This document shows positions 56,894 to 64,000 of a stretch of 64,000 bases of DNA, piece by piece (positions within the stretch are counted from its first letter, which is position 1; each line of letters opens with the position of its first letter). Source of the DNA: Rhodococcus sp. SBT000017 (GTDB lineage Bacteria > Actinomycetota > Actinomycetes > Mycobacteriales > Mycobacteriaceae); NCBI RefSeq assembly GCF_003688915.1, contig NZ_REFU01000003.1, positions 38,501-102,500 on the forward strand, read 5' to 3'. The position numbers and the translations under genes were made by a program. The notes under the pieces were generated by a model. That model had not been told where the DNA came from and did not search any database. It saw only the letters and a program-made list of their open reading frames with translations.

Positions 56894-56981
56894 GCAAACG
56901 CGCGCGCGTGTGTCAGCTGCATGGGGAATGGGCAGTGGTCGGGTGGCGATTCTGCTCGCGTATCGCAAGTGCGCGCGCCTT
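56894..56981. repeat. GC-rich 91-bp repeat, unit A, split by the IS element
   Basis: Positions 56894-56981 plus 59411-59413 beyond the insertion rebuild a 91-bp unit, exactly the length of unit B (59471-59561) and identical to it at 78 of 91 positions without gaps. It begins GCAAACGCGCGCGCG and ends GCGCGCGCCTTTGC when rejoined, so its ends are inverted repeats. Confidence 0.85.
56978..56981. repeat. Target site duplication, left copy (CCTT)
   Basis: CCTT directly before the left IS terminus equals CCTT at 59407-59410 directly after the right terminus. Four bases fits the IS21 family. Confidence 0.75.
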
Positions 56982-57119
56982 TGACGGCGCTCAGTGAAAG
57001 TGCCCAGATCTGATCTCTGAAAGTGCTCACCCGTGTGGCTCCGCCAATGAGGGCGGGCCTCCTCCGATGCTGATGGTCTCTGACCACACACCAGCGCCCC
57101 GAAGGAGACCCGCGATCTC

Positions 57120-58493
57120 ATGCTTACATGGGAAGAGGACATGGAGATATCCGCACTGCACAAACGAGGCATGTCGATCTCGGACATCGCCCGCCATACC
57201 GGCCGCAACCGCCGCACCGTCCGCAACTACATCAACGGAACCACCACCCCAGGTGTGCGACGAAAGTCCACGACGGACCCGTTCGAGGACTTCATCGACT
57301 ACATCCGCTACCGATTCACCGAGGACCCGCACCTGTGGGCGGTCGCCCTGTTCGACGAACTGTTGGCCCTGGGCTTCGCACTGTCCTATCCGACGATGAC
57401 CCGCAAGATCCGGCAGCAGAAACTACGCCCGATCTGCCTGGCCTGCAGGACCGCAACCGACCGAGCCAACGCCATCATCGACCACCCACCGGGCGAAGAA
57501 ACCCAATGGGACTACGTCGATCTACCGAACCCGCCGACTGAATGGGGTTGGGGCAGAACAGCACACCTGTGGGTCGGCTCCCTCGCACACTCGGGGAAAT
57601 GGCGGGCGGTACTGACCCCGTCGATGGATCAACCACATCTGGTCGACAATCTCGACCGCGTTGTCCGCGCTCTCGGCGGCACCACCCGAGTCTGGCGTTT
57701 CGACCGGATGGCCACTGTCTGCCACCCCGAGTCCGGTGCGGTGACCGCCAGCTTCGCCGGCGTCGCGAAGTACTACGGGGTCTCGGTCGCGATCTGCCCA
57801 CCGCGGAGAGGGAACCGCAAAGGTGTCGTCGAGAAAGCGAATCACACTGCAGCACAACGCTGGTGGCGGTCGTTACCGGACATGAGCGTCGAGCAGGCCC
57901 AAGCGCATCTCGACAACTTCTGTGCCGCCATCTCCGACAGTCGCACCCGCCACACCCCGGACGGAACCAGCACTGTCGCCGACCTCGCAGCGGCCGAACC
58001 CCTGCAGGAACCGCCGGCGACGGCGTATCCGGTGATTCTCGGCGACAGTCGGACGGCGTCGCGGCAAGCGTTGGTGTCCTACCGCGGCAACCAGTACTCC
58101 GTCCCGCCGGAGTTGGCGTCCGCGCAGGTCACCGTCACCCGCCCCGTCGGCGGTAGTCATCTCGACATCGTCACCGCCTCCGGCATCACTGTCGCCAGGC
58201 ATGCGGTCGCCGCCGACGGTCTCGGCATGATCGTCCGCGACAGCGGTCATGTCGTCGCACTCGAACGGGCCGCGATGGCGACCGCGAACACCGGCAAACC
58301 GCACCGCCGCAAAGAACGGATACCACCCGGGCCTGATGCGCTCAGGGCGGCAGAAGTATTGCGTGGCAGCAGTTTCCATAGTACGAACTACTCGACAGGA
58401 GCAGCTGAAACCGATTCCGCGGCAGCATCATCGGATGTCATCGACCTCTCGGCCTACGAGCGGGCTGCACGGGGAAGGAACACTCTCGCATGA
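57120..58493 (+). CDS. istA: IS21 family transposase
   Basis: A 457-residue DDE transposase. The N-terminal HTH is GMSISDIARHTGRNRRTVRN. The catalytic residues are in QWDYVDLPNP (first Asp), VWRFDRMATV (second Asp) and RKGVVEKANHTAAQRW (Glu). The C-terminal part (YRGNQYSVPPELASAQVTV) matches the IstA beta-barrel region. Its stop overlaps the istB start (ATGA). No frameshift or stop interrupts it. Confidence 0.95.
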   Translation: MLTWEEDMEISALHKRGMSISDIARHTGRNRRTVRNYINGTTTPGVRRKSTTDPFEDFIDYIRYRFTEDPHLWAVALFDELLALGFALSYPTMTRKIRQQKLRPICLACRTATDRANAIIDHPPGEETQWDYVDLPNPPTEWGWGRTAHLWVGSLAHSGKWRAVLTPSMDQPHLVDNLDRVVRALGGTTRVWRFDRMATVCHPESGAVTASFAGVAKYYGVSVAICPPRRGNRKGVVEKANHTAAQRWWRSLPDMSVEQAQAHLDNFCAAISDSRTRHTPDGTSTVADLAAAEPLQEPPATAYPVILGDSRTASRQALVSYRGNQYSVPPELASAQVTVTRPVGGSHLDIVTASGITVARHAVAADGLGMIVRDSGHVVALERAAMATANTGKPHRRKERIPPGPDALRAAEVLRGSSFHSTNYSTGAAETDSAAASSDVIDLSAYERAARGRNTLA

Positions 58494-59344
58494 GTGAAAC
58501 ACCGAAAGGAGGTGCCGCTGCCGATCGACTTCCCGCACCGAACACCGCGGAAGCAGCGAGCCTTTACCAACGTTTGCGTGGCCATCTCGGGGTCCTCAAA
58601 CTCGCCGACGCCGCCGAAGCACTGCCGGCGGTCCTCGACCAGGCCGCGGCGGAGGAGCTGTCGATGACGGCGGCGCTGGAGCGGTTGCTCTCGATCGAGG
58701 TTGCTGCCACCGAAGCGCGGCGGTTGGCAGGCAGGTTGCGGTTCGCGTGCCTGCCGACCCCGGCATCGCTCGAGGACTTCGATTTCGACAACGCCGCCGG
58801 GGTCGACAAGAAGCTGATCGACGAGCTCGCGACCTGCAGATATTTGGAGACCGCTACCAATGTGCTGCTCATCGGCCCGCCGGGGGTCGGGAAGACGCAT
58901 CTGTCGGTCGGGTTGGCGCGGGCTGCTGCGCATGCCGGGTATCGGACGTATTTCACCACCGCCGCCGATCTCGCCGCTCGATGTCACCGGGCTGCGATCG
59001 AAGGCAGATGGGCGACGACGATGCGGTTCTACGCCGGGCCGACACTGTTGGTGATCGACGAACTCGGGTATCTTCCGTTGCCGGGAGAGGCGGCTTCGGC
59101 GTTGTTTCAGGTTGTCTCGCAACGGTATATGAAGACATCGATCGTGATCACCAGCAATCGTGGTGTCGGATCGTGGGGAACGGTTCTCGGTGACGACACC
59201 GTCGCAGCAGCCATGCTCGACCGTCTCCTGCATCGATCGGTAGTCCTCGATATGTCCGGTGATTCCTACCGGCTCCGCGATCACAACGCACGATCGGAGA
59301 AGCTCCGCAAAGCCGTCACCGGGACCCGTCAACCGCTACAGTGA
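58490..59344 (+). CDS. istB: IS21 family helper ATPase
   Basis: A 284-residue DnaC-like AAA+ protein. Walker A is LIGPPGVGKTHLSVGLA, Walker B LLVIDELGYLPLPGEAA, and sensor SIVITSNRGVGSWG. IstB binds DNA in ATP-dependent filaments and recruits IstA to the target. It starts within the istA stop and ends about 10 bases before the right inverted repeat. Confidence 0.95.
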   Translation: MSETPKGGAAADRLPAPNTAEAASLYQRLRGHLGVLKLADAAEALPAVLDQAAAEELSMTAALERLLSIEVAATEARRLAGRLRFACLPTPASLEDFDFDNAAGVDKKLIDELATCRYLETATNVLLIGPPGVGKTHLSVGLARAAAHAGYRTYFTTAADLAARCHRAAIEGRWATTMRFYAGPTLLVIDELGYLPLPGEAASALFQVVSQRYMKTSIVITSNRGVGSWGTVLGDDTVAAAMLDRLLHRSVVLDMSGDSYRLRDHNARSEKLRKAVTGTRQPLQ

Positions 59345-59406
59345 TCACCGCTACCGGGTGAGCACTTTCGCTGAGCGAAGTTGAGCATTTTCGATGAGCG
59401 CCATCA

Positions 59407-59410
59407 CCTT
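59407..59410. repeat. Target site duplication, right copy (CCTT)
   Basis: CCTT immediately after the right IS terminus, equal to 56978-56981. The bases TGC that follow (59411-59413) complete the right arm of repeat unit A. Confidence 0.75.
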
Positions 59411-59470
59411 TGCTTGGTCGACCGTCGCGGGCGCGTCGCGCCGCCACTCGGGTCCAGTCCCCCGGTGTCC

Positions 59471-59561
59471 GCAAATGCGCGCGCGTGTGTCAGGTGCGCG
59501 GGAAATGGTCGGTGGTCCGGGTGCGATTGTGCGCGCGTATCGCAAGTGCGCGCGCATTTGC
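59471..59561. repeat. GC-rich 91-bp repeat, unit B, intact
   Basis: Begins GCAAATGCGCGCGC and ends GCGCGCGCATTTGC, a perfect 14-bp terminal inverted repeat. The last 20 bases, GCAAGTGCGCGCGCATTTGC, are themselves an almost perfect palindrome. It is 86% identical to unit A. It would fold as a long hairpin in either strand. No protein is coded convincingly. Confidence 0.88.
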
Positions 59562-59626: not shown

Positions 59627-59693
59627 GCACGTGCGCGCGCGTTCGTCAGGTGCGCGGGAATTGGTGAGCGGTCGGGGTGCGATTGTGCGCGCG
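59627..59693. repeat. GC-rich repeat, unit C, truncated
   Basis: Matches the first 67 positions of unit B at about 58 of 67, beginning GCACGTGCGCGCGCG and ending TTGTGCGCGCG, then diverges. The right arm is lost, so the terminal inverted repeat is not kept. It lies 65 bases from the rRNA terminator hairpin. Confidence 0.75.
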
Positions 59694-59758
59694 CGGATGG
59701 CGGATGCGTGCGCGTTCGTCCGCGAGAGGGTGGTGTGGGTGTGGGTGGTTTCGAAATG

Positions 59759-59796: not shown

Positions 59797-59806
59797 GAAT
59801 GTTGTG

Positions 59807-59923
59807 TTCGGCGGTGTCCTACTCTCCCACACCCTGTCGAGTGCAGTACCATCGGCGCTGGAGGGCTTAGCTTCCGGGTTCGGAATGGGACCGGGCGTTT
59901 CCCCTCCGCTATGGCCGCCGTAA
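59807..59923 (-). rRNA. rrf: 5S ribosomal RNA
   Basis: On the minus strand it starts TTACGGCGGCCATAGCGG, contains CCCGGTCCCATTCCGAACCC and GGTACTGCACTCGACAGGG, and ends in ACACCGCCGAAC. Length about 117. Ends are approximate to a few bases. Last RNA of the operon. Confidence 0.95.

Positions 59924-60071: not shown

Positions 60072-64000
<3,929 letters not shown>

Follow-up and report, generated by a model that had tools for sequence, protein, structure and literature searches.

The window analysed here is a 64,000-nucleotide stretch of the genome of Rhodococcus sp. SBT000017 (contig NZ_REFU01000003.1), and coordinates are positions within it. Just beyond the 3′ end of an rRNA operon it carries three units (A, B and C) of a non-coding paired-palindrome element, the first of which is split by an insertion sequence (IS) of the IS21 family. 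The element has a defined architecture and old, fixed positions, lies beyond the 3′ ends of genes and was not found in a zone of about 2 Mb around dif. The features of the locus are as follows.

56894 to 56981, plus strand: left 88 bp of unit A, with palindrome 1 at 56894-56913 and palindrome 2 from 56965; the final four bases, CCTT, are the target duplication
56982 to 59406, plus strand: IS21-family IS of 2425 bp, with ends TGACGGCGCTCA...TGAGCGCCATCA
57120 to 58493, plus strand: istA, DDE transposase (PF22483, Mu-transpos_C_2; rve weak)
58490 to 59344, plus strand: istB, helper ATPase (PF01695)
59407 to 59410, plus strand: second copy of the CCTT target duplication
59411 to 59413, plus strand: final three bases of unit A
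59471 to 59561, plus strand: unit B, an uninterrupted 91-bp element, with palindromes at 59471-59490 and 59542-59561
59627 to 59717, plus strand: unit C, a decayed copy (66/91 identical to B)
59806 to 59922, minus strand: 5S rRNA, beyond which units A, B and C lie
60074 to 63228, minus strand: 23S rRNA, of the operon that stands at the window end with part of its 16S

Once the IS and one CCTT copy are removed, unit A is 91 bp long and aligns with unit B without gaps (78 of 91 positions identical), and the IS sits three bases from the unit's end between CCTT copies at 56978-56981 and 59407-59410, both as described in the first-pass annotation, which was made from the letters of the window. The inverted terminal arms that it reported are also present and are perfect over 14 bp in unit B (GCAAATGCGCGCGC / GCGCGCGCATTTGC); the palindrome that it called internal is the right-hand member of a pair of 20-bp palindromes whose starts lie 71 bp apart, and of the three copies at the locus it had noted two, overlooking C. 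Units lie just past the 5S gene in three rRNA operons of this genome (L206, L006 and the window), and the window locus matches position 0.1965 Mb of the genome G022 over 2.7 kb at 89%. The window copies belong to a larger family, as decayed members on the rRNA side.

A search of the SBT000017 genome (5,647,116 bp in five contigs) with unit B gave 68 DNA matches at E≤10, 28 of these at E≤0.001, and the 20-bp palindrome GCAAAYGCGCGCGCRTTTGC occurs 76 times on one strand at three mismatches or fewer, against 0 for a reversed control pattern, so that the family is not due to chance. The expectation of a dispersed, palindromic family resembling repetitive extragenic palindromic (REP) sequences was thereby borne out, and since copies are found genome-wide and nearly always between genes, they are neither restricted to this locus nor a feature of conserved genes. 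Matches at E≤1e-6 are present in 15 of 37 genomes of the genus, and none at E≤1e-5 in 24 genomes of other genera. In a scan of named genomes the exact palindrome occurs in 102 stretches, of which 91 belong to R. fascians-type strains and one (L111) to the sister genome G021, the other ten (nine non-Rhodococcus records and R. phenolicus) being set aside as outside. Outside the Rhodococcus fascians clade the family is largely absent. 'R. ruber IEGM 1391' (G014) falls inside this clade on a single-gene (M18) tree, which makes its species label doubtful. G021 holds one clade-type 71-bp unit, at the locus at 2.554 Mb in G022, and the element is therefore older than the clade. The exact palindrome was not found in viral contigs, and a phage origin was set aside. 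Nothing on the palindrome string or the repeat was found in the open PubMed Central (PMC) library, and the word Rhodococcus is absent from the RepRanger paper (PMC12306157).

Each unit consists of two inverted arms of about 38 bp flanking a free centre. An arm is made up of the 20-bp palindrome and, inward of it, a degenerate copy of the CAGGTGCGCGCGGATTCG or TGAACGCGCGCGGAAT type, and the centre keeps its length and not its sequence. Among 221 distinct pairs of neighbouring palindromes less than 400 bp apart, the start-to-start spacing is 70/71 bp in 115, 60/61 bp in 33, 62-69 bp in five and 51/52 bp in ten. A tandem array of palindromes at 51/52 bp, ending in a 70-bp pair, occurs at 3.2616-3.2619 Mb in G022 (L192) and at C1:3062302 in SBT000017 (L025) and is common to several genomes of the clade.

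The behaviour of the arms does not support a hairpin or cruciform. Co-variation that would keep the arms paired was not seen among 178 distinct units. In a permutation test of 12 arm positions, with 29 loci weighted equally, the arms match less than expected at position 15 (0.28 versus 0.47; 26 of 2000 permutations as low) and likewise at positions 18, 20, 22, 23 and 25 (7 to 49 of 2000); there is a less clear tendency in the same direction at positions 21, 24, 32, 33 and 35, and an opposite one at position 6 (0.82 versus 0.71; 162 of 2000 as high). Complementarity does not extend past the unit ends either, with values of 0.85 versus 0.92 in shuffled sequence for 81 units and 0.94 versus 1.02 for 64 larger clusters; the flanks of 23 single palindromes from the clade gave 1.00 versus 0.80 (219 of 1000 shuffles as high). 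The palindrome at L179:5123 (KRD162) differs from other members in the clade in being enclosed by a perfect inverted repeat of 40 bp or more.

The positions of the clusters are shared. By flanks other than rRNA, 22 of 24 clusters in SBT000017 share an element locus with G022 (long matches mostly 84-96% identical), a count from which a queried stretch at 2.953 Mb with no palindrome was dropped; of the remaining two, C2:286 kb matches G022 through rRNA only and the cluster at 4.034 Mb has no match. For 133 clusters from other genomes, a set that includes orthologues, duplicate records and two G022 loci, the best hit is a G022 element locus in 128, another origin-side piece in two, a terminus (ter) sample in none and absent in three; in a translated search of these last three, one led to the element locus at 3.105 Mb and two matched weakly. 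The suggestion that copies are mobile is not supported by these figures; what varies between genomes is the number of units per locus. The only candidate for an empty and a filled site, at 4.034 Mb in SBT000017 compared with G022, proved to be a larger replacement instead of a clean difference. The convergent gap between PNP and M18 was read in 24 of 30 genomes: 12 members of the clade hold at least one pair, G024 holds a single palindrome and the rest hold none, with G026 unreadable and G021 and G031 probably read from another gene. By eye, the units in this gap are recognisable though the surrounding DNA has diverged. In G032 (L230) the same gap contains a different inverted motif (GTGCGTA...TTACGCAC).

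Inverted termini, a length of about 90 bp and dispersed copies would suit relics of a non-autonomous miniature inverted-repeat transposable element with no present function. Such an origin is very doubtful, given positions common across the clade and units at the M18 gap that outlast the likeness of their flanks; in addition, searches that covered RAYT (the REP-associated tyrosine transposase) and IS21 brought up no transposase whose ends match.

With respect to genes, the 115 clusters of at least two palindromes lie in convergent gaps in 52 cases, in tandem gaps in 36, in a divergent gap in one, at contig edges in 23 and inside a predicted open reading frame in three. Convergent gaps hold 52 of the 89 clusters that could be placed, whereas they make up 92 of the 467 gaps in the 8-kb stretches (304 tandem, 71 divergent), figures that come from a rough gene caller and count orthologous clusters separately, so that P values overstate. 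Where a cluster faces a gene 3′ end, it is within 70 bp of it in 65 of 88 cases (median 33.5 bp). A preference for highly expressed genes was set aside from protein families and not from measured expression: among 30 flanking G022 proteins, five have no family and the others, metabolic, transport and regulatory proteins, form an unremarkable mixture. Polarity of the strand toward the origin was likewise dropped, the strands being mixed by the look of the lists, uncounted.

This placement, together with the copies just after 5S genes, would be expected of bidirectional transcription terminators, that is, hairpins without a U-tract between convergent genes. A sister palindrome, GCAAACGCACGTGCGTTTGC, does look like a terminator: its single copies in G021 and G030 have long locus-specific complementary flanks. 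The units of the clade, by contrast, have neither stem extension nor pair-keeping co-variation, their conserved centre length is not expected of terminators, and terminators would be needed near dif too, where convergent gaps carry no element (see below). We therefore regard termination as quite an unlikely role.

The sister palindrome itself occurs at 13 near-identical places in G021 (11 exact; L343, L345, L347, L349 and L351) and one in G030 (L340), mostly at gene 3′ ends, either singly with perfect locus-specific hairpins of about 30-40 bp or in 51-bp tandem arrays. All three single copies compared have 5-10 bp of matching flanks, 10 being the measured limit; three copies are too small a set for the shuffle test, in which 169 of 1000 scored as high. 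Of six loci, three strongly match ter-side G022 DNA, one matches an origin-side element locus and two match weakly, the G022 DNA compared being mostly from the ter side. At first sight the sister palindrome seemed part of the same system; terminator-like and with three of the six loci matching ter-side DNA, it was kept apart from the element.

The IS in unit A is a regular member of the IS21 family, with istA and istB, inverted ends and a short target duplication whose length we take to be within the range of the family. Likewise two overlapping genes, related terminal repeats and a 4-bp target duplication are found in IS21 elements at large, and nothing is unusual in the window copy. The three copies in SBT000017 have the duplications CCTT, AATC and CCGT (window, C1:121564 and C1:336378, in that order), and only the window copy lies in a repeat. 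A related IS in G022 (istA 68% identical) has eight copies, none inside a palindrome; one is among decayed rRNA-side repeats (duplication ACTC, by eye) and one lies about 430 bp from the unit at 5.237 Mb. Excerpts of one report describe IS elements as targeting REPs (PMC1525189), and the first-pass annotation raised such targeting here; with one of three copies in a repeat in this genome and none of eight in a palindrome in G022, the idea was rejected, and the IS looks to have entered a decayed copy on the rRNA side by chance. The REPIN-like element that the annotation also suggested is not supported in the strict sense either. The RAYT domain (PF01797, Y1_Tnp) is found in just one of 37 genomes of the genus (G019:C38:16734-17096), which is also the sole such genome among the 15 with matches, and the unit consensus has, by eye, no GTAG or CGTC tag.

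The distribution of clusters between origin and terminus was examined with the C1 contigs of G022 and G017 treated as closed circles and dif located by a motif that we take to be the correct one. G022 (5,341,557 bp; dnaA at 3.780 Mb) has 23 clusters, and their largest gap, 0.29-2.21 Mb, contains dif at 1.008 Mb. G017 (5,706,031 bp; dnaA at 0.153 Mb) has 15 clusters and a gap at 2.13-4.49 Mb that contains dif at 2.834 Mb. On C1 of SBT000017 (dnaA 3.593 Mb, dif 0.810 Mb), the interval from 5.8 kb to 2.05 Mb has no match at E<0.5, and no palindrome is among the matches listed. No element was thus found in a zone of 1.9-2.4 Mb around dif. The probability of so large a gap holding dif is 4.9e-4 in G022 with 23 clusters (3.0e-4 with 24, 7.8e-4 with 22) and 3.7e-3 in G017; Kolmogorov-Smirnov tests of cluster distance from dnaA gave 0.009 and 0.016, respectively. 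The underlying search scored 40 of 45 candidates in G022 and 28 of 28 in G017. Five G022 matches (E>0.4, 20-27 bp) were dropped, including two that fall in the gap, at 0.46 and 1.04 Mb, and one of the 23 clusters (3.57 Mb) has no palindrome at four mismatches or fewer. A 24th cluster, a decayed rRNA-type unit at 5237337-5237427 (L337:840-930), lies outside the gap and is absent from the whole-genome search results.

The gap does not come from a want of sites, because 1.2 Mb of it in G022 has equal GC content (65.4 versus 65.2%) and 151 convergent gaps with no unit among them, the origin side having 59 convergent gaps in 0.4 Mb. Within this 1.2 Mb there are 11 hits at five mismatches or fewer, none paired, compared with 33 hits in 0.4 Mb of the origin side; a further 0.2 Mb around dif has three hits at five mismatches or fewer and no pair. 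Nor is accessory turnover of the ter half supported as a cause, since G022 covers 94% of 0.4 Mb of SBT000017 ter DNA at 92.7% identity.

A further property of the family is a change of spacing throughout a genome. Among units of 60/61 and 70/71 bp, the short class makes up 18 of 20 in ARC_M5 (G033) and seven of seven in IEGM 1391, compared with 12 of 145 in 11 other genomes, a count that leaves out other spacings such as the 66 bp of IEGM 1391 at 4.656. By G022 locus, ARC_M5 is shortened at 2.727, 2.944, 3.057, 3.262, 4.227, 4.656 and 4.870 and stays long at 2.875; IEGM 1391 is shortened at 2.727, 2.944, 3.262 and 4.227. Two other genomes also have the short unit at 3.057, and wherever a pair is seen at loci 5.097 or 5.214, it is short. 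The nearest relative of a unit (n=172) is at its own locus in another genome for 83 and at its own locus in the same genome for 45, and otherwise at another locus of the same genome for six and of another genome for 38. Because units resemble their own locus (83 and 45 versus 6), the arms were not copied between loci and no new unit swept the genome; concerted evolution between loci was rejected on the same count. In one or two lineages, nearly all units have become shorter by a helical turn with no homogenisation. By eye, ARC_M5 and IEGM 1391 agree at 4.227 in the sequence of the centre and at 3.262 in motifs of the arms, and for this reason a single shift in a shared ancestor is possible; the two are not joined in the M18 tree. 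A different departure is seen in G024, which is inside the clade (100/100 for 14 rows in the M18 tree) and has 14 palindromes at two mismatches or fewer. We take G024 to be IEGM 1381, with which it agrees in sequence at M18. Each of seven loci read in G024 corresponds to an element locus of G022, and six of the seven hold a lone palindrome and one a 60-bp unit; an eighth (L059), on the rRNA side, holds a 71-bp pair.

Much of this could describe an ordinary repeat like REPs or bacterial interspersed mosaic elements (BIMEs) that spread once in the ancestor of the clade and no longer moves, any effect of it being on RNA 3′ ends or supercoiling, with the ter gap a founder accident. Available parts of PMC3733652 describe REP dimers, REPINs and BIMEs of the GTAG and CGTC families as short extragenic palindromes paired at a set distance, in convergent or co-directional gaps and in local tandem clusters, and record REP dimers with spacers of similar length and different sequence. 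The Rhodococcus element shares with them the pairing of palindromes, the location beyond gene 3′ ends, the local tandem copies (one to three units at a locus) and the restriction to a clade. It differs in having neither the tag nor, in nearly all genomes of the genus, a RAYT; in positions frozen across species, recent dispersal not being seen, in some two dozen clusters that are nearly all old; and in two spacing classes one helical turn apart. In addition, a REP-like history predicts neither the gap around dif nor the lineage-wide shortening without homogenisation. We consider it a somewhat unlikely account.

Our own preference is for a clade-specific element whose roughly two dozen fixed, origin-side clusters are a putative double-stranded landing platform for a protein, a reading that we hold tentatively, as possible and short of probable. 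Phased binding sites of this kind are favoured by the kept centre length, the spacing classes one turn apart, the lack of hairpin co-variation, the fixed positions and the ter gap. The two arms would be double-stranded binding sites for a putative sequence-specific, probably dimeric protein, and an arm-to-arm distance of 70/71 or 60/61 bp would hold the bound units to the same face of the helix. The role of the clusters might then be to label the origin side of the chromosome, for nucleoid organisation or the timing of division, as the sites of SlmA and Noc do, to which they would be analogous and not members. According to excerpts of PMC4726725 and PMC3116907, SlmA of E. coli has 24-52 SlmA-binding sites (SBS) and Noc of B. 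subtilis about 70 Noc-binding sites (NBS), which are palindromic and under-represented in Ter. The Rhodococcus element is alike in its tens of palindromic sites depleted around dif, at a nominal P of 4.9e-4 in G022 from what is one ancestral observation. SlmA sites lie mainly in coding regions, as excerpts of PMC3116907 have it, whereas the Rhodococcus sites are long, composite, paired and outside genes, and their binder is putative. With the RAYT, the tag and mobility lacking on one side and a putative binder on the other, the element is filed neither with REPs nor with SlmA/Noc sites.

Several observations weigh against a landing platform. As positions are inherited, G017 is not independent and the ter gap counts once; it was noticed after looking, so that its nominal P (~5e-4) has to be discounted; it is off-centre relative to dif; and for about 0.5 Mb of it in G022 the only coverage is that of the search in which 40 of 45 candidates were scored and one decayed cluster outside the gap went unnoticed. 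Successive units show weak helical phasing (R = 0.31, P ~0.008, with a best period of 12.4 instead of 10.5), which is not relied on. The shift by one turn may have been a single event in one ancestor that took a mutational route. The absence of a match in 22 of 37 genomes of the genus is odd for a core function, and a site past the 3′ end of a gene and palindromes paired across a spacer of conserved length are nothing out of the ordinary in REPs, going by the available parts of PMC3733652. Finally, the protein that would bind the units is itself putative.

A wider proposal, which we rate as unlikely, would make these elements the cis half of an undescribed system for marking chromosome arms, resembling nucleoid occlusion, in mycolic-acid Actinobacteria, in which a putative dimeric protein would act on helically phased palindrome pairs absent around dif, one lineage having been re-tuned by one turn and G024 being in the course of losing the system. 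Actinobacteria have no recognisable Min or Noc homologue, as stated in excerpts of PMC3989709, and because they place the septum without these, a family of palindromic sites that avoids the terminus would offer a direct handle on an open question. If the proposal were true, G024 would be a natural near-knockout for finding the putative protein, and its mostly single palindromes point to a screen for lost genes. The lineage-wide shortening by one turn without homogenisation is in its own right an uncommon natural experiment that bears on how many unlinked sites may change along with a protein.

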